In this document: positions 1,503 to 10,656 of the stretch, in pieces
How the letters are laid out: every line of letters starts with the position of its first letter
Position numbering within the stretch: the first letter of the stretch is position 1
Source of the DNA: Lachnospiraceae bacterium
GTDB taxonomy: Bacteria > Bacillota > Clostridia > Lachnospirales > Lachnospiraceae
Direction: 5' to 3'
Assembly (NCBI GenBank): GCA_017439665.1
Contig: JAFSIS010000008.1
Span: 1 to 64,000, forward strand
Length of the DNA stretch: 64,000 nt
Made by a program: the position numbers and the translations under genes
The notes under the pieces: model-generated
The model's input: the letters and a program-made list of their open reading frames with translations, nothing else
The model's database searches: none
Told to the model about the DNA's origin: nothing

Positions 1503-1895
1503 TCAACTGAAGCATTTTTCAAATAATTCAGTTCTCAAATTAATAAATTCTTCATTTTCATTAACGTTAAAAACTTCATAAAGCTCATCCAACTCAAGTT
1601 TCACCAATGGCGTATCTCTAGCCATTTGATGAATTTTCCAATTAACCACATCATTAATCAATTCATCAAATAAATCTTCTGCAGTAAAATACAAATGGTT
1701 CCAATCAAAGGCAAAATTATTAGGGCAATCCTCCCTGCAAAGTTCCAGATAAACAAAACCAAATCTTCCTGCATCTGCTACACAATTTCCCTCCTGTTCG
1801 ACAATCGGATTAAACACATCTGCAACCCTTTGACATTTTTTCCTTTCTTCTTCTGTCATAGCAGGTAAACTGGATAACATTTCAATAACATTCAT
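1503..1895 (-). CDS. Unknown acidic protein, 130 aa
   Basis: A 130-residue acidic soluble protein (many Asp/Glu/Asn) preceded by GTAGGAGA before the ATG. Features visible are a Cys pair region (LCREDCPNNF) and an aromatic DWNHLYF segment; no catalytic motif is evident. Size, charge and setting beside gene remnants are typical of immunity proteins or orphan SUKH/SMI1-like proteins, but I see no diagnostic motif and do not assign a family. Confidence 0.6.
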   Translation of the reverse strand: MNVIEMLSSLPAMTEEERKKCQRVADVFNPIVEQEGNCVADAGRFGFVYLELCREDCPNNFAFDWNHLYFTAEDLFDELINDVVNWKIHQMARDTPLVKLELDELYEVFNVNENEEFINLRTELFEKCFS

Positions 1896-1967: not shown

Positions 1968-2011
1968 CAAAAAAAGGTGCTTAAAAGCCGGTTTAGAGCT
2001 TTCAAGCACCT
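1968..2011 (-). terminator. Rho-independent terminator of the EET/Rnf operon
   Basis: On the minus strand an aggtgctt/aagcacct stem, extended inward by aaagc/gcttt, is followed by six T residues. It lies 14 nt after the stop of the last gene of the redox operon. Confidence 0.85.
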
Positions 2012-2024
2012 TTTCACTGCACTC

Positions 2025-2474
2025 CTACAGCAGAATATTTCCAAATCCCTGGAAGGCCATGAACAGGACGAAGGCACTGCAGACAGGGGCCAGCCTGGAT
2101 CTGATGGTACATTCCATACGATCCGTCATAGAAGCAAACATACCGCTGATCAGGGTATATTCCACTCCGCCAACGCCGGCCAGCCACAAAGCCTCCTTTA
2201 CGGAAGCCAGACCTGCCAGCCAGGGAAGGCAGCCAAAGATCAGGGCCGCGAACACCAGGTTCATCACCGGATGGCTGCTCTTTTTTTCTCCCAGATAATG
2301 GGTCAAGAGCAGGGACAAAAGGCTCAGTCCCGCCAGATTGGGGATGTTCAGCCGGATCAAAATGGCTGCTGCCAGAAAGGTCTTTAACAGAACCATGATG
2401 ATCAGGGTGATTCCCATGACCAGAGCCAGCATCATGGTTTCATTTATCTTCAATTTACTCGTTAATTTCTTCAT
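2025..2474 (-). CDS. Unrecognised polytopic membrane protein in Rnf-like operon
   Basis: A 149-residue very hydrophobic protein with about four or five membrane spans (roughly residues 14-40, 45-60, 71-90, 94-112, 127-147). The start chosen is ATG 2474, which has GGAGG at proper spacing and lies 4 nt past the RnfG stop; a longer frame into rnfG has no such site. It is the last gene of the operon, where RnfE or RnfA would be expected. It lacks the recognisable RnfA/RnfE cysteine motifs; the only similar string is FGCLPWLAG near residue 80, and overall length is about 50 residues shorter. It may substitute for RnfA/E as the membrane electron conduit, or anchor RnfG. Function is inference from position. 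Confidence 0.75.
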   Translation of the reverse strand: MKKLTSKLKINETMMLALVMGITLIIMVLLKTFLAAAILIRLNIPNLAGLSLLSLLLTHYLGEKKSSHPVMNLVFAALIFGCLPWLAGLASVKEALWLAGVGGVEYTLISGMFASMTDRMECTIRSRLAPVCSAFVLFMAFQGFGNILL

Positions 2475-2478
2475 TCCG

Positions 2479-3177
2479 TCAACCTCCCCAACTCGTTGCT
2501 CCGGAGGAAATATCCGCTCCGGTGACGTATGCCACAGCCGCATTCACTCCCTTGGTGACCGCCTTGGAAGAAACGGTTGCCCCGGTCAGTGCATCCACGG
2601 TGGTTCCCGTCTGGGCTTCTCCTGAGGTTCCCAGATACTGCTGCAAAAAGGGTACATTGGTCTGGCTGGCCGCACCCAGGCCGAAGGTCTCATGCTGTCC
2701 GTAAACACAGAGCCCCTTCACCTTACCGCTGTCGTCCACGCCTACCAGTAATTCAATCTCATCCACATAGCCCTGGGTCACCGTACAGATCACGTAACCG
2801 GTCTCCCCCCGGTAGACGAAGCGGATGATCTCTTCCTCTTCGGCAGCTTCTTCGCCCTCTTCAGGGATGATCTCTTCTCCCACAGGCTCCGTTTCTCCAC
2901 CTTCGCCGGCAGAAGAAGCAGCTGCCAGCTCTGTACCGTTGTCAGTCTGAGGCCCGCCTGCCACTTCGGCACCGTTGTCAGCCTGAGACTCCTCCGCCGC
3001 CTCCACACTCATCTCCAGGGTGAAGGTAGTGGAGCCGGGCAGTAAATAAGGAAAGATTTTCTGCAAATAACGTTCTTCATTGGCTGTCTCCAGCCCTGCC
3101 AGTCCTTTCCTGCCTGCAAAAAGAAGGCAGCCCATGATCAGGATGGTCACCAGTGTTTTTCCCATGTATTTTTTCAT
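2479..3177 (-). CDS. rnfG: RnfG-like FMN-binding subunit
   Basis: A 232-residue protein with one N-terminal membrane anchor (residues 8-22) and a C-terminal FMN-binding domain. The flavinylation motif DALTGAT is at 195-201, so Thr201 is the expected site of covalent FMN attachment by ApbE; SSKAVTKGV follows as in RnfG/NqrC proteins. In known Rnf and Nqr complexes this extracytoplasmic flavin passes electrons across or along the membrane face. Between anchor and domain lies an unusual acidic insert of about 60 residues (58-117) with an internal repeat (QADNGAEVAGG, QTDNGTELA). ATG 3177 overlaps the rnfD stop as ATGA. The longer frame upstream of 3177 runs inside rnfD and is not used. Confidence 0.9.
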   Translation of the reverse strand: MKKYMGKTLVTILIMGCLLFAGRKGLAGLETANEERYLQKIFPYLLPGSTTFTLEMSVEAAEESQADNGAEVAGGPQTDNGTELAAASSAGEGGETEPVGEEIIPEEGEEAAEEEEIIRFVYRGETGYVICTVTQGYVDEIELLVGVDDSGKVKGLCVYGQHETFGLGAASQTNVPFLQQYLGTSGEAQTGTTVDALTGATVSSKAVTKGVNAAVAYVTGADISSGATSWGG

Positions 3178-4172
3178 GCTCTGCTCCCTCCTTTCCCGGT
3201 TCCGAACCGACGGGGTACAGTATAGTAATCCAGTGCCCAGACAAGCGCATTCATCAGCAGAATGGCGTAGGTCACTCCCTCCGGAAACAATCCGAAATAC
3301 CTGAAGACCACGGTAAGGATACCGCATCCTGCTCCATAGATCAGCTGGGCCACAGGGGTCACCGGTGAAGAAGAATAGTCCGTTGCCATAAACAGGGCTG
3401 CCAGAACTACACCGCCTCCCATCAGGCTGTAAAGCATCCACATCAGGGGATCTTCGCCCTTATAGAAGATGAAGGTAAGGACGGCCACCGTTCCCAGATA
3501 GGCCACAGGAATTCTCCAGGAAATCACCCTTCTAAGCAGAAGGTAAACCCCACCGATCAGGAGGGCAAGGGTACAGATTTCTCCCATACTTCCATCAATA
3601 TTGCCTAAAAACATATCCTTTAAGGAGATCTCCGGCAACGCCGGAATCTGCATATGGTGAAGTGGTGTGGCACTGGTCACCAGATCTGCACCGGCACTAA
3701 TTTGGGATACCACCCTTTCTGTTCCCTCCTCCACAGCACCTGTCCCCGCAGGAAAACGGGTCAGATATACGGGCCAGAACAGCACCAGGAAGGCACGGGC
3801 AGCCAGAGCCGGGTTGAAGATATTTTTGCCGATTCCTCCTGAAAAGCCCTTCACCACAATCATGGCAGACAGGCTTCCTACTGCCATAAGCCAGCAGGGT
3901 ATGGATACGGGAACCGACATTGCCAAGAGCAGACCGGTTACCGCCCAGGACAGATCCGGTAAGGTATTCCGGTGATAGATCAGCTTGTCACAGATCAGTT
4001 CTCCAAGGAAAGCCGCTGCCACACTGACCAGGGTAATGAGTATTGCTCGTGAACCAAAGCGGAGAATCCCTGCCAAAAGTGCCGGAAGGAGGGCGATGAT
4101 CACATCCCGCATAATGGTTCCTGTTTTTGTTTTGCTCCTGAGGTGTGGAGCTGAAGTTACCAGATAGTTCAC
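3174..4172 (-). CDS. rnfD: RnfD-like membrane flavoprotein subunit
   Basis: A 332-residue integral membrane protein with about nine spans. It shows the family signature GGIGKNIFNPALAARAF at 112-128, the flavinylation-type motif VTSATPL at 165-171 (Thr169 as predicted FMN-phosphothreonine), and YAILLMN near the C-terminus. RnfD carries a covalently bound FMN and forms part of the transmembrane electron path. Translation starts at GTG 4172, one base after the rnfC stop, with AAGGAGGA inside the end of rnfC. It overlaps rnfG by 4 nt, indicating tight coupling. Confidence 0.92.
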   Translation of the reverse strand: MNYLVTSAPHLRSKTKTGTIMRDVIIALLPALLAGILRFGSRAILITLVSVAAAFLGELICDKLIYHRNTLPDLSWAVTGLLLAMSVPVSIPCWLMAVGSLSAMIVVKGFSGGIGKNIFNPALAARAFLVLFWPVYLTRFPAGTGAVEEGTERVVSQISAGADLVTSATPLHHMQIPALPEISLKDMFLGNIDGSMGEICTLALLIGGVYLLLRRVISWRIPVAYLGTVAVLTFIFYKGEDPLMWMLYSLMGGGVVLAALFMATDYSSSPVTPVAQLIYGAGCGILTVVFRYFGLFPEGVTYAILLMNALVWALDYYTVPRRFGTGKGGSRA

Positions 4173-4173
4173 T

Positions 4174-5472
4174 TTAGCGTTCCTCCTTCAGTTTTTGTTT
4201 TGCTGCCTTAAAGCTGGAGGTCAGGGGAAGCTTGCCCGGACAGGTATAGGAACAGCAGCCGCACTCAATGCAATCCATCAGATAATAGTACTCCATTCCT
4301 TTTTTATTTTCCAGCTGAATCTGTTCAAAAAGATGCAGGGGCTGCAGCTTCATGGGACACACCGTCAGGCATTTTCCACATCGGATGCAGGCATAATCCC
4401 CGGTGTCTACATTCTCAATAAGTCCCAGCACTCCGTTGGTTCCTTTGATCACGGAAACAGATAAGTCATCCTGGGCATAGCCCATCATGGGACCTCCGGT
4501 GATCACCTTACAGGTTTCTGCCTTCACTCCTCCTGCTGCCTCAAGCAGATCAGCATAGGAGGTTCCAACAGGTGTCCGGAAGTTCCCCGGATGATTTACC
4601 CCTTCACCACTGACCGTTACGATTCGTTCGGTAACGGCTTTTCCCTGCACCACTGCATCATAGGTGGCAGCAAAGGTGGCCACATTAAATACGGCACAGC
4701 CTACGGCTGCGGGCAGCTGTCCGGGAGGAACCTCCCTGCCGGTGACGGCCTGGATAAGCTGCTTTTCTGCTCCCTGGGGAAAACGGGTGGGAAGCACCTT
4801 CAGTTCAATGTCCTTTTCCTTTTCCAGAGCCTTTTTCAGCCCTTCAATCGCTTCTTTTTTATTTTCTTCTACGGCCAGAACCATTCTCTCCGGCTTCAGG
4901 ACATGACGGATAATATGCATTCCTGCCAGCACCCGGTCTGCCTCATTGCGAAGCAGGGTATCATCTGCGGTCAGATAAGGTTCACACTCACAGCCATTGG
5001 CAATCAGTGTCTCCACCTTTTCCATGGAGGAGGCTGCTTTCACCTGGGTGGAAAAAGTTGCTCCACCCATACCTACGATCCCTGCCTCACGAATGATGGC
5101 AAGAATCTCTTCCAGGTTCAGCTTCCGGTAATCCTCATGGCAGGCCATGGTTTCATCCGGTGTATCCTGAAAGTCATTTTCAATGACCACAGCCATGATC
5201 TCCTGGCCGGAGGGATGGCGTCTGGGTTCCACCGCAACCACTTTTCCGGAAACGGAGGCGTGAACGGGTACACAGAGGCCTTCCCCGTCGCCTATCTTCT
5301 GGCCTTTTTTTACCTGATCGCCTACTCCCACCAGGGGCTTACAGGGTACGCCGATGTGCTGGGACATGGATATACTTACCTGCTTTGGCTCCAGTCTTCT
5401 GAGCGGAGGTCCACCTGCAGAAAGTTCCTTTTTATCTGCCGGATGAATTCCTCCAAAAAACAAAGATTTCAT
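4174..5472 (-). CDS. rnfC: RnfC-like NADH-side iron-sulfur flavoprotein
   Basis: A 432-residue cytoplasmic peripheral subunit. In order: an N-terminal RnfC barrel-sandwich domain, the nucleotide/FMN segment GIVGMGGATF at 131-140, NGCECEPYLTAD at 159-170, GGPMMG at 326-331, and two C-terminal 4Fe-4S ligand sets, Cys362/365/368/372 and Cys401/404/407/411. In Rnf complexes this subunit exchanges electrons with NAD(H). Length is near the usual size. Start ATG 5472 has AAAGAGG upstream. No rnfB is present in the operon, so the normal ferredoxin-side entry is missing; electrons here probably enter at RnfC from NADH. Confidence 0.93.
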   Translation of the reverse strand: MKSLFFGGIHPADKKELSAGGPPLRRLEPKQVSISMSQHIGVPCKPLVGVGDQVKKGQKIGDGEGLCVPVHASVSGKVVAVEPRRHPSGQEIMAVVIENDFQDTPDETMACHEDYRKLNLEEILAIIREAGIVGMGGATFSTQVKAASSMEKVETLIANGCECEPYLTADDTLLRNEADRVLAGMHIIRHVLKPERMVLAVEENKKEAIEGLKKALEKEKDIELKVLPTRFPQGAEKQLIQAVTGREVPPGQLPAAVGCAVFNVATFAATYDAVVQGKAVTERIVTVSGEGVNHPGNFRTPVGTSYADLLEAAGGVKAETCKVITGGPMMGYAQDDLSVSVIKGTNGVLGLIENVDTGDYACIRCGKCLTVCPMKLQPLHLFEQIQLENKKGMEYYYLMDCIECGCCSYTCPGKLPLTSSFKAAKQKLKEER

Positions 5473-5638: not shown

Positions 5639-6667
5639 CTAGCTTCGGATCAACTCCTCAAAGCCCGGGCTATAGTATTGGTTTCCCTCCAGATCGATCC
5701 ACATAGCTTCTGCCTGACACTTTTCAAGAAGTGCCTGTCCCTCCTCAAGAGGAAGCAGGAACAGGGCTGTGGAGAGTGCATCTGCCAGGCCCGAATCTTC
5801 ACAGACTATACTGACGGATCGCCAGTAGCGGGCTGGATAGAGGGTATCCGGATCTATGATATGGTGATAGCTTTCCCCATCCACCTGATAATAGCGTTGA
5901 TAATCTCCGCTGGAAACCACACTGCCCTTCATCAGGTTCAGGGTGTGTACAAATTCCTCAGGATTCTCAGGGGACTGGATTCCCACTACCCAGGGGCTGT
6001 CCGTCTCCGGCTTGGGCCCCGTTGCATGGACATTTCCTCCTACACTTACCGAAAGACCGGCGGGAAGATCTTCACATACCTTCTGCACGGCCCAGCCCTT
6101 GGCAATGGCTCCTACATCCAGACTCTGGTTCGGATCCTCAAGAAAAACCGTGGAGTTTTCTTCATCAATGATCATCCCATCAAAGCTGCAATGGAGAGCT
6201 GCCTCCTTCAAGGCAGCTTCATCCGGCAAAACTGCATTTTCCTGGTCATCAATCCCTGCACTCCTGACCTCGTGCCAGAGGGAGAGAACGCTTCCCATGG
6301 CTACATTCACTCTGCCCTCCGTCAATTCATAATAGCTGCGACAGTCCAGCAGGAAATCAATGATCCTGGTATCCACTTTTACAGGCTTATCTCCTGCCTG
6401 GTCATTGATGGTCTTCAGATTATTGATCCCTTCGTAGCTATGATAAATATCCAGAAGCTGGTGATACTCTTCCAGGGAGGCCTTAATGGCTTCTGCCTCC
6501 TTTTGGAATTCTTCCTGGTTTTTGGCATATCCGATGATGGTCGTCACGGTGTCAAACAGCCCCAGAAAAGTAGCCTGATATTTTTCTTTTCCACCGATGG
6601 AGGAGGTGCTGCCTGCACATCCTGTAAGTAACACCAGGGCCATAAAAAACGGGAAGATTCTTCTCAT
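5639..6667 (-). CDS. apbE: ApbE lipoprotein, FAD:protein FMN transferase
   Basis: A 342-residue lipoprotein (lipobox LLTGC, Cys17) of the ApbE family, which moves FMN from FAD onto Thr of the D-x(2,3)-[ST]GAT-type motif in extracytoplasmic proteins using Mg2+. Motifs: SLDVGAIAKGWAVQ around 182-195, VGGNVHATG near 209, HHIIDPDT at 268-275 and the C-terminal metal/flavin segment DSGLADALSTALF at 291-303. I prefer ATG 6667 over GTG 6679 because AAGGAG overlaps the GTG but is well placed for the ATG. Its likely clients are next door: the double FMN-binding lipoprotein, RnfG and RnfD. Corresponds to FmnB of the Listeria electron-transfer locus. Confidence 0.93.
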   Translation of the reverse strand: MRRIFPFFMALVLLTGCAGSTSSIGGKEKYQATFLGLFDTVTTIIGYAKNQEEFQKEAEAIKASLEEYHQLLDIYHSYEGINNLKTINDQAGDKPVKVDTRIIDFLLDCRSYYELTEGRVNVAMGSVLSLWHEVRSAGIDDQENAVLPDEAALKEAALHCSFDGMIIDEENSTVFLEDPNQSLDVGAIAKGWAVQKVCEDLPAGLSVSVGGNVHATGPKPETDSPWVVGIQSPENPEEFVHTLNLMKGSVVSSGDYQRYYQVDGESYHHIIDPDTLYPARYWRSVSIVCEDSGLADALSTALFLLPLEEGQALLEKCQAEAMWIDLEGNQYYSPGFEELIRS

Positions 6668-6694
6668 ACGTCCATACACTCCTTCAAGCTCTGC

Positions 6695-7786
6695 CTACTG
6701 TCCTGCTTTTTCCACCAGCTGGATAAAGCTTCCGATGGAAACGGTCACGGATGCTGCCAGATCTGCATCACCGGCCTTTCCTTCCTCCGTCACTGCTATG
6801 GTGGTCACTTCTTCAATGGTCTTTCCGGTAACGTATGCTGCAAAGGCTGCTGCCTGCTCATTCCACTCTTTTCCGATGGAGGAGGCTGCCTTCATTCCAT
6901 AGCTTTCTCCCAGTTCATTTTTACTCAACACTTCTGCTGTCAGATCAGAGGTGATCTTTCCTGCAGTATCAAAGTTTACATTTGCCTGTACTCCATCCAG
7001 GATCATGCTGGTAATGGTACCTTCTTTTAAGGTCATTGCTGCAATGGTGGCATAGGCCTGGGTCAGGCCCTCTTCCTCTCCTGCATCCTTACTCTTGCTT
7101 GCATGGGTGATCTGAGTGATTACCAGCTCGTCTCCCACAGAAGCCCCCAGGTCTGCTGCATTATTCACTGCTGCTTCGATCTGGTCTACAAAGCTTCCAA
7201 TATACATGGTGGCAGAAGAAGCCAGATCGGCATCCTTTGCCTTGCCGCTTTCATCCACTGCACCATTCTTTAACTCCTCCACAGTTTTTCCTACTGCATA
7301 CTGTGCAAGAGCTTCAGCCTGCTCATTCCATTCCTTTCCGATGGAGGAAGCAGCCTTCATTCCATATTCTTCACCCAGCTCATTTTTACTGGGGAAGCTT
7401 TCCCTGACGTCTACCAGCTTACCTTCTTTAGAGAAGTTGATAGTAGCCTTGATTCCATCGATAGCACAATCCTGGATCACTCCCTGTCCATCCACAGTTA
7501 CTGCCACGATACCGATGTTGGTCGTAGAGGAACCGTCTGCCTCTTCACCTGCATCCGTACCTTCCAGTGTAGTCACGATAGACATACCTGTTTTTACAGC
7601 ACCCTCTGCCAGCTCTTCTGTATCCGTTACAGATGCTTCCTCTCCGCTCTCTGCTGCCTGCTCTGTTGCTGTTGCTGCTTCCTGGGTTTCCGGACTGCTC
7701 TGCTGTACAATAACAGTATTCCCACAACCGCCAAGTAAACTCACGGTTAATCCCAAACTTAAAAATGTTGCCAATAATTTTTTCAT
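6695..7786 (-). CDS. PplA-like lipoprotein with two FMN-binding domains
   Basis: A 363-residue lipoprotein (signal peptide 1-20, lipobox LLGGC, Cys21), a low-complexity acidic linker (about 30-85), then two tandem FMN-binding domains. The first carries DLASSAT at 187-193, a good flavinylation site at Thr193. The second carries DLAASVT at 342-348, where Val replaces the usual Ala, so its modification is less certain. The segments at 134-172 and 289-327 are nearly identical (KNELGE.YGMKAASSIGKEW), showing internal duplication with little drift. PplA in Listeria is the surface flavoprotein that hands electrons to external acceptors. AGGAGGAG precedes the ATG; the apbE gene follows closely. Confidence 0.9.
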   Translation of the reverse strand: MKKLLATFLSLGLTVSLLGGCGNTVIVQQSSPETQEAATATEQAAESGEEASVTDTEELAEGAVKTGMSIVTTLEGTDAGEEADGSSTTNIGIVAVTVDGQGVIQDCAIDGIKATINFSKEGKLVDVRESFPSKNELGEEYGMKAASSIGKEWNEQAEALAQYAVGKTVEELKNGAVDESGKAKDADLASSATMYIGSFVDQIEAAVNNAADLGASVGDELVITQITHASKSKDAGEEEGLTQAYATIAAMTLKEGTITSMILDGVQANVNFDTAGKITSDLTAEVLSKNELGESYGMKAASSIGKEWNEQAAAFAAYVTGKTIEEVTTIAVTEEGKAGDADLAASVTVSIGSFIQLVEKAGQ

Positions 7787-7935: not shown

Positions 7936-8454
7936 TTAGCTTTTTTCCGGTATCTGTCCGCTTACTGCCAGAATACGGAATACTCCCGCACAGATGCTGC
8001 CTGTAGCCATTCCCGTAAAAATGGATACGATCAGTAAATAGGGAAGATATCCCACCACGTAAACAGACTCCATCAATACCACCGCCACACCAATCTGGCC
8101 TATATTATGGGCCGCTGCCCCCAATACGCTGACTCCATAAACGGAGAACAGTTTAATCTGGCGCATTAATGTCATCACCACCAATGCCAGGATTCCTCCG
8201 GTCAGTGAGAAGGCCAGGCCTGAGAATCCCCCTCCGAAGAAGGCTCCCAGAAAACACCGGATCCCCAGGATGGTGAAGGCACTCTTTACACCCAAAAAGT
8301 AGAGGGCCATCAGTGTGACCACGTTAGCCAGTCCCAGCTTAATTCCCGGCAGTCCAACAATCATTTGCAGGGGAATGAACCGCTCGATATAGGAAAGCAC
8401 CAGGGCCAACGATATTAAAATTGCACAATAGATCAGCTGCTTCGTTTCTCTCAT
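7936..8454 (-). CDS. EetB-like Gx transporter family membrane protein
   Basis: A 172-residue membrane protein with about five spans and the Gly-rich pattern of the Gx-transporter / heptaprenyl-diphosphate-synthase-component-I family: KLGLANVVTLMALYFLG, LGAFFGGGFSGLAFSLTGG, and LGAAAHNIGQIGVA. In Listeria the homologue EetB acts with EetA in flavin-based extracellular electron transfer, probably at the membrane step; similar folds also occur in vitamin transporters. It starts 18 nt after the EetA-like gene with AAGAGGA before the ATG and is followed by the PplA-like lipoprotein, matching the known gene neighbourhood. Confidence 0.88.
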   Translation of the reverse strand: MRETKQLIYCAILISLALVLSYIERFIPLQMIVGLPGIKLGLANVVTLMALYFLGVKSAFTILGIRCFLGAFFGGGFSGLAFSLTGGILALVVMTLMRQIKLFSVYGVSVLGAAAHNIGQIGVAVVLMESVYVVGYLPYLLIVSIFTGMATGSICAGVFRILAVSGQIPEKS

Positions 8455-8472: not shown

Positions 8473-8859
8473 TTACTTTACGATAACATCTACCTCGGAC
8501 TCTCCTCCCACCCTGAGTTCAACCCGGTTGGGAAGGCAGACGATACTCCGTCCTGCTTCGTGGATCCATCCACTGTGTACACAATCGGTTCCGGGACAAC
8601 TGGACTGAGTGATACCGGCCTCTTGGTTTCGGATCTCAATTCGATTGTAATACTCACCCTCCACAGTAAATTCTGCATCCTGTGCCAGCGGCATCTCCTT
8701 GATCAGCTTTCCATCCTGATAGATGAACAGTGTATTCGCTTCCTGCTTTTGTACTCCTGAGTGAAAACCAGCTGCTGTAAGAAAGGTAAGCGCAAGAACG
8801 ATACCAATGGCAATAACATCGCCTTTTCCAAACTTCAGATTCATTTTCCGGTCTTTCAT
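8473..8859 (-). CDS. EetA-like NusG domain II membrane-anchored protein
   Basis: A 128-residue protein with one N-terminal membrane anchor (about residues 14-33) followed by an extracytoplasmic NusG-domain-II fold (about 42-127). Typical features are IYQDGKLIKEMPL, the central GEYYNRIEIRN and the Cys-containing SCPGTDCVHSGWI with C-terminal IVCLPNRVELRV. Listeria EetA has this architecture and is needed for electron transfer to the surface flavoprotein. AAGGAGGA precedes ATG 8859. It is the first gene of the operon, about 28 nt from the predicted transcription start. Confidence 0.88.
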   Translation of the reverse strand: MKDRKMNLKFGKGDVIAIGIVLALTFLTAAGFHSGVQKQEANTLFIYQDGKLIKEMPLAQDAEFTVEGEYYNRIEIRNQEAGITQSSCPGTDCVHSGWIHEAGRSIVCLPNRVELRVGGESEVDVIVK

Positions 8860-8886: not shown

Positions 8887-8902
8887 GCCCTCGTATTATA
8901 AC
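8887..8902 (-). promoter_or_regulatory. Extended -10 promoter of the EET/Rnf operon
   Basis: Minus-strand TATAAT (8895-8900) preceded by TG and one base gives an extended -10 box. No good -35 at standard spacing was found. Predicted leader is short, ending in the AAGGAGGA of the EetA-like gene. Confidence 0.65.
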
Positions 8903-9003
8903 ATGAGCCGTAAACCTTGTATACAATTTCATTGATTATTTCTTAACGAAAAATATCGGTATTTTTTGTCAGTTATTCCAGTCAGTGCCATATAAAGAAA
9001 CCA

Positions 9004-9128: not shown

Positions 9129-10046
9129 TCAGGCAAACATCTTCTCCACCAATTCCTTATAGCGTTTCTTCAACATCTCATACTCCAAGGAATCTGAAAT
9201 CAACTTAAGCGTAGTTTCCCGATAATCTTCTTTGTAAAAATCTTGATCACAAATCTTTTGAACCAACTCTACAATATTCACATCCATAGGTGCTGCCGGA
9301 GCAATTTCACTTCCCATATTAATTCTATGCACACGCACTTCCTTTACAAGTTCCAAGAAATCACTATCCAGCTCCACATGCTCTGTCAATTTGTAAATAT
9401 CATAAAGGTGTCTTGCATTTCTGTGAGGTTTGTCCTGCAAATAGTAATCGCATACAGCAAAAATTTTATCAATCAATGTACGATTCAAAGACTGAACACG
9501 CATAGGAAATGTTCCCAAATCATACGTTACAATAAGCTCCTCTTCCTCTGCTCCCAGGGCATCTAATATATAATTACCGAGTTCCCTTTCTTCTGTAGGA
9601 AATGCGTAAGACAACAAAGACGTTTCCAGCTTAACATAGGGTGGAATAGGATTGATCACTCTATTACCCACTACTGACTCATAATAAAAATCATAATGAT
9701 TCAGATTCTTATCGCTTTCGATAGAATCAAAATTGCGAATCACAAGTCCCAATTCATCTGCAATCGGCTTTAAAATGTTATATTTTAACTTCTTCCTTCT
9801 TGCTTCTCCCAGATGTTCTGAAAATGTAATATCAATATCCTCCGAAAATCGGTCTATTACCTGAAAGGCTTTGGATAGAGATGTACCACCTTTAAACACA
9901 ACCGGATATTCAATTGCAGAAAGCTTCTTCAAAATCAATGTAACGTAATAATCTTTCTCTACGATATCTTCACTGACTTCAAGTTTCTGTGATGTCAGCA
10001 AAATTGCATCGCAAAACAGTTCTCTATTCTCTTTATGCAAGTACAT
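9129..10046 (-). CDS. AbiEii-type nucleotidyltransferase toxin
   Basis: A 305-residue protein of the AbiEii/DUF1814 nucleotidyltransferase family. The core motif is visible near residue 55: VVFKGGTSLSKAF (GGTSL with following Lys) then RFSEDIDITF, the metal-binding Asp pair. In type IV AbiE systems this enzyme is a reversible, growth-inhibiting GTP-dependent nucleotidyltransferase that aborts phage infection. It overlaps the upstream antitoxin gene by 14 nt, the usual arrangement. Length is in the family range and no truncation is seen. Confidence 0.9.
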   Translation of the reverse strand: MYLHKENRELFCDAILLTSQKLEVSEDIVEKDYYVTLILKKLSAIEYPVVFKGGTSLSKAFQVIDRFSEDIDITFSEHLGEARRKKLKYNILKPIADELGLVIRNFDSIESDKNLNHYDFYYESVVGNRVINPIPPYVKLETSLLSYAFPTEERELGNYILDALGAEEEELIVTYDLGTFPMRVQSLNRTLIDKIFAVCDYYLQDKPHRNARHLYDIYKLTEHVELDSDFLELVKEVRVHRINMGSEIAPAAPMDVNIVELVQKICDQDFYKEDYRETTLKLISDSLEYEMLKKRYKELVEKMFA

Positions 10047-10656
10047 GATCTAACCCCAGTTCATAGTAATATTTAAAGGTAGCCATCGGATATTTTCTGA
10101 TATATATATCGACATCACTCCGCTTTATTCCGTGAATGGCGATATACTCAGCAAATTTTTCCCTTGCCTCATCATAAGTATAATCTAAATATGCATCAAG
10201 ATTTTTTAGCAACTCAAGCATCTGTAACACATACACATTCTCTTTTGTTATCTGTACAATTGGTTTTCTCACATAAAAGCTTCTGTTACCAATCCGTACT
10301 TCTCTGTCTGACGAGTTGGTATTGTTACTCACAATCTCAACCACTCGTGGAACCTGTGTCGTAATCCCTAGCTGATTTGCAAAAGAATTACCACCATAAA
10401 AACCGTCAACATTATCTCCTTTGGAAATAAAACGATATCTCGCCACCATATCCGCATTAGGACCAATGGTAGAATTCAGCAAAGACTTCTTTGGTATAAA
10501 ATATACTCCGGTATCATACTTCTGCAGCAAACCTTTATCACAGAGTTTCTTCAACTGCTGGTTTAATGCCGACTTCGTAATATCCTCACGCTCCAAATCC
10601 GAAAAGAAAATCGGCTCCGCTTCTTTGTAATGTTCTTTTATATAATTGTATAGCAT
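10033..10656 (-). CDS. AbiEi-type antitoxin / transcriptional regulator
   Basis: A 207-residue protein with an N-terminal winged-helix region (residues 1-60; SALNQQLKKLCDKGLLQKYD is the recognition part) and a C-terminal AbiEi-like domain (YRFISKGDNVDGFYGG onward). AbiEi proteins repress their own promoter and counteract the AbiEii toxin. AAGGAGAAG precedes the ATG. A consensus promoter with inverted repeats lies directly upstream, fitting autoregulation. Gene order antitoxin then toxin with overlap supports a complete, intact system. Confidence 0.87.
   Translation of the reverse strand: MLYNYIKEHYKEAEPIFFSDLEREDITKSALNQQLKKLCDKGLLQKYDTGVYFIPKKSLLNSTIGPNADMVARYRFISKGDNVDGFYGGNSFANQLGITTQVPRVVEIVSNNTNSSDREVRIGNRSFYVRKPIVQITKENVYVLQMLELLKNLDAYLDYTYDEAREKFAEYIAIHGIKRSDVDIYIRKYPMATFKYYYELGLDHVLA

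Follow-up and report, generated by a model that had tools for sequence, protein, structure and literature searches.

A small membrane protein in the place of RnfA/RnfE accompanies RnfC, RnfD and RnfG in Rnf-like operons of gut Clostridia

In a variant of the Rnf operon, the gene that follows rnfG encodes a small membrane protein, here called X, which is strictly linked to this operon, is mutually exclusive with RnfE, RnfA and RnfB, and has no conserved metal ligands. Comparative sequence analysis makes it reasonably probable, in our judgement, that RnfC, RnfD, RnfG, and X form a reduced, one-way complex, in which X, derived from RnfA/E, would be an obligate membrane subunit without redox activity. 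On the broader proposal we are evenly divided: that in the RnfCDG-X of gut Clostridia a single cysteine-free remnant stands in for the ion-pumping RnfA/RnfE pair, and that what was a reversible pump now exports electrons from NADH in one direction, to a multi-flavin lipoprotein.

The operon and its last gene

The operon was analyzed in a stretch of 64,000 nucleotides from a Lachnospiraceae bacterium (contig JAFSIS010000008.1), referred to as the window. Its eight genes lie on the minus strand in the order NusG domain II protein, PF07456/EetB-like protein, two-repeat flavoprotein lipoprotein, ApbE, RnfC, RnfD, RnfG, and X. From the promoter side to the terminator, the features are:

8895..8923, minus strand: promoter-like sequence upstream of the operon, TATACA-17-TATAAT with a TG extension, called only by its match to the consensus
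8473..8859, minus strand: NusG domain II protein
7936..8454, minus strand: PF07456 membrane protein, EetB family
6695..7786, minus strand: two-repeat lipoprotein; the repeats contain DADLA(A/S)S(V/A)T-type motifs, found by eye and by script
5639..6679, minus strand: ApbE flavin transferase (lipoprotein)
4174..5472, minus strand: RnfC, with RnfC_N, Complex1_51K, SLBB and two 4Fe-4S motifs, both kept
3174..4172, minus strand: RnfD, NQR2_RnfD_RnfE, flavinylation motif SATPL kept
2479..3177, minus strand: RnfG, FMN_bind, motif DALTGATVSS (TGAT) intact
2483..2489, minus strand: Shine-Dalgarno sequence of X, GGGGAGG, within the last rnfG codons (TGG GGA GGT TGA)
2025..2474, minus strand: X, a predicted five-helix membrane protein, last operon gene; proposed cysteine-free RnfA/E relative without helix 1
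1971..2015, minus strand: intrinsic terminator directly after X, a 19-pair hairpin and a T-run

X is a real gene. Its start was set to the ATG at 2474, which has a Shine-Dalgarno sequence and matches the starts of the orthologues; an alternative upstream start would give 172 aa. GGGAGG occurs at the equivalent position at the end of rnfG in 26 of the 29 loci described below, which points to translational coupling of X to rnfG. The C-terminal WGG-stop of the variant RnfG (window 2479-2489) is conserved and encodes the Shine-Dalgarno sequence of X in most loci; translation signals may be what preserves this protein motif. On the 3' side of X, the terminator hairpin has a dG of -25.9 kcal/mol (z -6.3). 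The first-pass annotation had described a last gene of 149 residues with four to five spans, and the present data bear out the length and the position while settling on five predicted helices. These span residues 12-33, 44-61, 69-86, 92-123, and 129-148 in a single AlphaFold2 model built from 24 sequences (pLDDT 89.5, pTM 0.82); from the X sequence alone, the model is poor (pLDDT 57). Single-sequence searches with X gave no match in Pfam, NCBIfam, PDB sequences or plasmids.

The window RnfD comprises 332 aa with PF03116 as its sole Pfam domain and carries no fused PF00175 NAD-binding domain. In the window RnfG, an acidic, repeat-like insertion of about 50 residues is found near the N-terminus, and relatives are without it. 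The repeats of the flavoprotein lipoprotein gave no Pfam hit, FMN_bind included. Two repeats are found in the window versus about four in three genus-mates (L010 11145-13199; L011 11159-13141; L012 4247-6313). The NusG domain II protein of the operon is presumably EetA-like. From their length and even number, we infer that the lipoprotein repeats are of the FMN-bind2 type (PMC10979944). The FAD exporter subunit EetB belongs to PF07456 (PMC9973259), in keeping with a flavin supply to ApbE.

RnfC, RnfD, and RnfG are present in the window operon, and none of RnfA, RnfE, and RnfB is encoded there. On another contig, the same genome holds a complete ordinary operon, RnfC-D-G-E-A-B; thus, the window holds a second, partial Rnf. 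The operon is adjoined by an AbiEii toxin family gene (PF08843) and an upstream DUF6088 gene (9129-10656, minus strand), likely a type IV toxin-antitoxin pair. Downstream of the operon, a 130-aa ORF (1503-1895, minus strand) has no Pfam match.

Distribution of X and linkage to the operon

First searches revealed five orthologues of X with 29-40% identity. As the six genus and family sequences were too varied for a direct scan of contigs, the variant RnfD was taken as bait across 84,980 genomes, followed by an iterated HMM of X. This resulted in 29 hits, i.e., the window itself (L014) and 28 further loci, where X of L030 is identical to that of the genus-mate G203 and is an apparent duplicate. 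The hits derive mostly from MAGs and isolates of Lachnospiraceae and Oscillospiraceae; two of the isolates are Flavonifractor, and the complete genome of Oscillospiraceae CE91-St43 is also represented. Two class-level genomes (L110, L111) gave weak hits that proved spurious, being a short frame opposite other genes and a part of a larger unrelated protein.

In all 29 loci, X directly follows rnfG. Upstream, wherever the contig reaches, the order flavoprotein lipoprotein, ApbE, RnfC is unchanged, with the exceptions of L031 (no ApbE detected) and L055 (no flavoprotein lipoprotein detected). Not in a single one of the 29 operons were RnfE, RnfA or RnfB found beside X, while the canonical neighbours L051, L052, L054, L056, L084, and L091 carry all three and are without X. 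Outside this operon setting, X was never found in approximately 1,000 genomes searched. The suggestion of the first-pass annotation that the gene represents a new subunit type defining an Rnf-like variant is in good agreement with this distribution, as is the co-occurrence with RnfCDG lacking A/E, which it had proposed to check and which holds as far as the contigs reach. Two outcomes that it had named as counting against its view, a confident match to an unrelated transporter family and orthologues mostly outside the operon, were not observed.

In the RnfD tree, the variant proteins group in one clade (support 0.94), with a canonical RnfD from Oscillospiraceae as sister; the single member listed as canonical inside the clade is L014, the window itself. 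A single origin of the variant, out of a full Rnf, is therefore most likely.

RnfA and RnfE were also sought elsewhere in the X-bearing genomes. Each of eight genus and family genomes checked contains exactly one RnfE/RnfA pair, and RnfA/E (PF02508) is present in seven of ten other X-bearing genomes searched. In the remaining three (L055, L038, L043), the variant RnfD is present but PF02508 gave no hit; these are drafts in which MAG incompleteness is possible, and an X operon independent of RnfA/E is therefore suggestive only. Where a genome holds both systems, sharing of subunits with the complete Rnf is possible.

Cysteines of X and its probable kinship with RnfA and RnfE

RnfA and RnfE each carry two cysteine half-sites, and their ligand cysteines (C25/C113 of RnfA and C25/C108 of RnfE in A. 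woodii, PMC11889175) are invariant in 60 canonical RnfA and 63 RnfE sequences. X lacks this pair of half-sites. The window protein has three cysteines, Cys82 in the string GCLPWLAG, Cys122, and Cys132, so that the first-pass annotation had placed Cys132 correctly, the first cysteine one residue too early (as Cys81), and had passed over Cys122. Conservation of Cys81 and Cys132, which it proposed to check, is absent: in the 24-sequence alignment, the column of Cys82 holds a cysteine in one sequence, that of Cys122 in one, and that of Cys132 in two. Hence, the faint resemblance of GCLPWLAG to an RnfA/E half-site does not hold up as a cysteine site, while the reported absence of a recognisable RnfA/E cysteine signature is corroborated. 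None of the alignment columns is a conserved Cys or His, and no conserved heme or Fe-S site was found among the 24 sequences; strong conservation falls on P, G, A, and L residues and on R119 and Q142. An RnfA/E-type membrane [2Fe-2S] cluster in X therefore appears very unlikely.

Two Oscillospiraceae MAGs with an X operon contain a third, highly divergent Rnf-like cluster (L112:3483-5662, L113:4454-6640). Its PF02508 proteins score 49-104 bits, yet Fe-S cysteines are gone from both sites of the RnfA-like protein of L112 and from the first of that of L113, and, judged by eye, from both sites of the RnfE-like protein of L113 and from the second of that of L112. RnfA/E relatives devoid of cluster ligands therefore do occur. 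Adding the divergent RnfA-like proteins did not raise the score of X.

Formally, X falls outside PF02508: the Pfam scan gave no hit for the window X and a single one among the 24 members, with E 0.54, below the cut-off. Profile comparison reaches further. With hhalign, 24 X against 60 RnfA sequences gave a probability of 55-67%, a score of 33-36, and P 5e-5 to 1.2e-4. The best span places X 91-147 on RnfA 129-190, i.e., from helices 5-6 to the C-terminus, and a relaxed path places X 1-148 on RnfA 28-191, which is RnfA minus helix 1. In 400 column shuffles preserving hydrophobicity, the X-RnfA score was never reached (33.3 versus a mean of 14 and a maximum of 27.0); it also exceeded the decoy membrane families tested. 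The global mode is weak (P 0.013). Against RnfE alone, X is not significant, with 36 of 400 shuffles reaching the score; the X consensus nevertheless aligns to RnfE weakly and repeatedly, with the same one-helix offset as to RnfA. The X HMM gives RnfA and RnfE higher scores than their reversed or shuffled counterparts and than other membrane proteins, but RnfD no higher score than its reversed version; these group tests use related sequences and their p-values are inflated.

Structural comparison ranks the same families. In a Foldseek search of the X model, A. woodii RnfA and V. cholerae NqrE took ranks 2 and 4 of 350,542 chains with non-significant E >1; the best E was 1.3 and no fold rose above background, so that the support is one of ranking only. 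In the VIA comparison, C. tetanomorphum RnfA reached Z 5.9, inside the background, with the best Z of 6.8 to ABCA1. The five helices predicted for X differ from the six-helix RnfA/RnfE fold with its broken helices I and IV. The positions matching RnfA R154 and E158, which in A. woodii are reported to interact with the cluster of RnfB (PMC11889175), are mostly lost in X. The last helix of RnfA contacts helix V of RnfD (PMC9588780), and this part of RnfA is the one best preserved in X.

The alignments suggest that X is best read as an RnfA/E protein without its first helix, by a similarity that is weak but specific and below normal significance. A remote relationship of X to RnfA/E is, in our view, likely.

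A proposed reduced complex and its relation to known systems

X most likely derives from an RnfA/RnfE-type protein by loss of the first helix and both cysteine half-sites, a loss that would have accompanied the dropping of the ferredoxin-linked limb formed by RnfB, RnfA, and RnfE. In the known Rnf, electrons pass along ferredoxin, RnfB, RnfA/E, RnfG, RnfD, RnfC, and NAD (PMC11889175). After loss of B, A, and E, the remaining NADH-RnfC-RnfD-RnfG chain could deliver only to something outside. Electrons would thus enter from NADH at RnfC (FMN and two 4Fe-4S clusters), proceed to the flavins of RnfD and the FMN on RnfG, and be handed to the multi-flavin lipoprotein and on to an extracellular acceptor; the co-encoded lipoprotein with its two to four DADLAASVT-type repeats would be the obvious acceptor of RnfG. 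The EetB-like protein would export FAD and ApbE would attach the FMN. X would sit next to RnfD where RnfA otherwise lies, pack the membrane part, and keep RnfG docked at RnfD. RnfA/E has been proposed as the sodium channel of Rnf (PMC11889175); without RnfA/E and its cluster, no sodium pumping by the known route and one-way running are expected. Membership of X in the complex, the direction of electrons, the absence of pumping, and a structural role of X are what we infer from these observations, and a structural, gap-filling subunit would be the simplest reading of X.

Other origins and roles of X have to be weighed against this. X may have no kinship with RnfA/E: a small membrane protein of other origin could have been recruited by RnfCDG, as an accessory or for assembly, and its similarity to RnfA/E would then reflect the chance likeness of hydrophobic helices. 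The weak scores, the blank Pfam and PDB sequence searches, and a structural Z within background would fit such a protein, which we nevertheless hold to be unlikely, since the RnfA signal stands above all hydrophobicity-preserving shuffles and tested decoy families and both RnfA and RnfE align to X shifted by one helix. It is far less probable that X still conducts electrons through some other cofactor, organic or not conserved (heme, quinone, flavin), in place of the [2Fe-2S] cluster. Operon position and the likely kinship with conduit subunits speak for it; the conserved residues include neither Cys nor His, and RnfD and RnfG already carry electrons across. Of the highly diverged conduit envisaged by the first-pass annotation, an RnfA/E origin is thus suggested by profile comparison and a conduit role is unsupported.

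Two further possibilities concern partners of X, and both are very improbable. X could adapt the RnfCDG limb to the RnfA/E/B of a canonical Rnf encoded elsewhere, giving a hybrid complex. The occurrence of RnfA/E in the genus of the window and in most other tested genomes would allow this. However, each canonical operon supplies RnfC, D, and G of its own, and the three X-bearing draft genomes have no detectable RnfA/E. A part in flavin export, with X as ECF-T partner of the EetB-like protein, has the lowest probability of all. EetB does work with an ECF-T subunit, FmnA (PMC9973259), and the stretch of X between helices 4 and 5 includes a conserved Arg. Yet eight loci with at least 1.2 kb upstream of the flavoprotein gene keep X without an adjacent EetB homologue, and X is always coupled to rnfG. 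In addition, ECF-T proteins are far larger than X.

RnfCDG-X would bear on the debate whether RnfA/E or RnfD is the ion pump (PMC11889175, PMC9588780). A natural RnfC/D/G complex without RnfA/E would be a ready-made test: electron transfer without pumping would support the RnfA/E pump model, and pumping would count against it. Literature searches in an open-access library found no description of RnfCDG-X. In a survey of flavinylation, Rnf is defined by RnfB and NQR/RNF-like systems by the RnfD-NqrF fusion; neither describes the RnfCDG-X cluster, and X clusters would not count as Rnf under the RnfB-based definition (PMC8238504).

Compared with RnfABCDGE, for which cryo-EM structures exist from A. 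woodii (PMC11889175) and C. tetanomorphum (PMC9588780), the window shares RnfC, RnfD, and RnfG with their cofactor motifs and has X, resembling helices 2-6 of RnfA/E, in the rnfE slot. In contrast, RnfB, RnfA, and RnfE are missing from the operon, X has no cluster ligands, and a flavoprotein lipoprotein is added. With RnfA/RnfE and NqrE/NqrD (PF02508), X has in common a weak profile similarity, collinear helices, and a C-terminal end at the same place, whereas it has five helices instead of six, no half-site cysteines, and a score below the Pfam threshold. The two-subunit NQR/RNF-like systems, in which an RnfD-like membrane domain is fused to the NAD-binding domain of NqrF (Meheust 2021, PMC8238504; Huang 2024, PMC10979944), likewise keep a single electron-transfer limb with a proposed one-way flow to an extracytosolic FMN domain. 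In the window, however, RnfC is separate, the flavinylation motif of RnfD is kept, and X is added.

The locus for flavin-based extracellular electron transfer (EET) of the Gram-positive Listeria also combines an EetB family protein, ApbE, and a lipoprotein, which is multi-flavinylated in Listeria and putatively so in the window, where its repeats gave no Pfam FMN_bind hit. Electrons enter the Listeria pathway by Ndh2 and quinone, whereas the proposed entry in the window is RnfC-RnfD-RnfG-X. If true, RnfCDG-X would give gut Clostridia a separate way of feeding electrons into flavin-based export.
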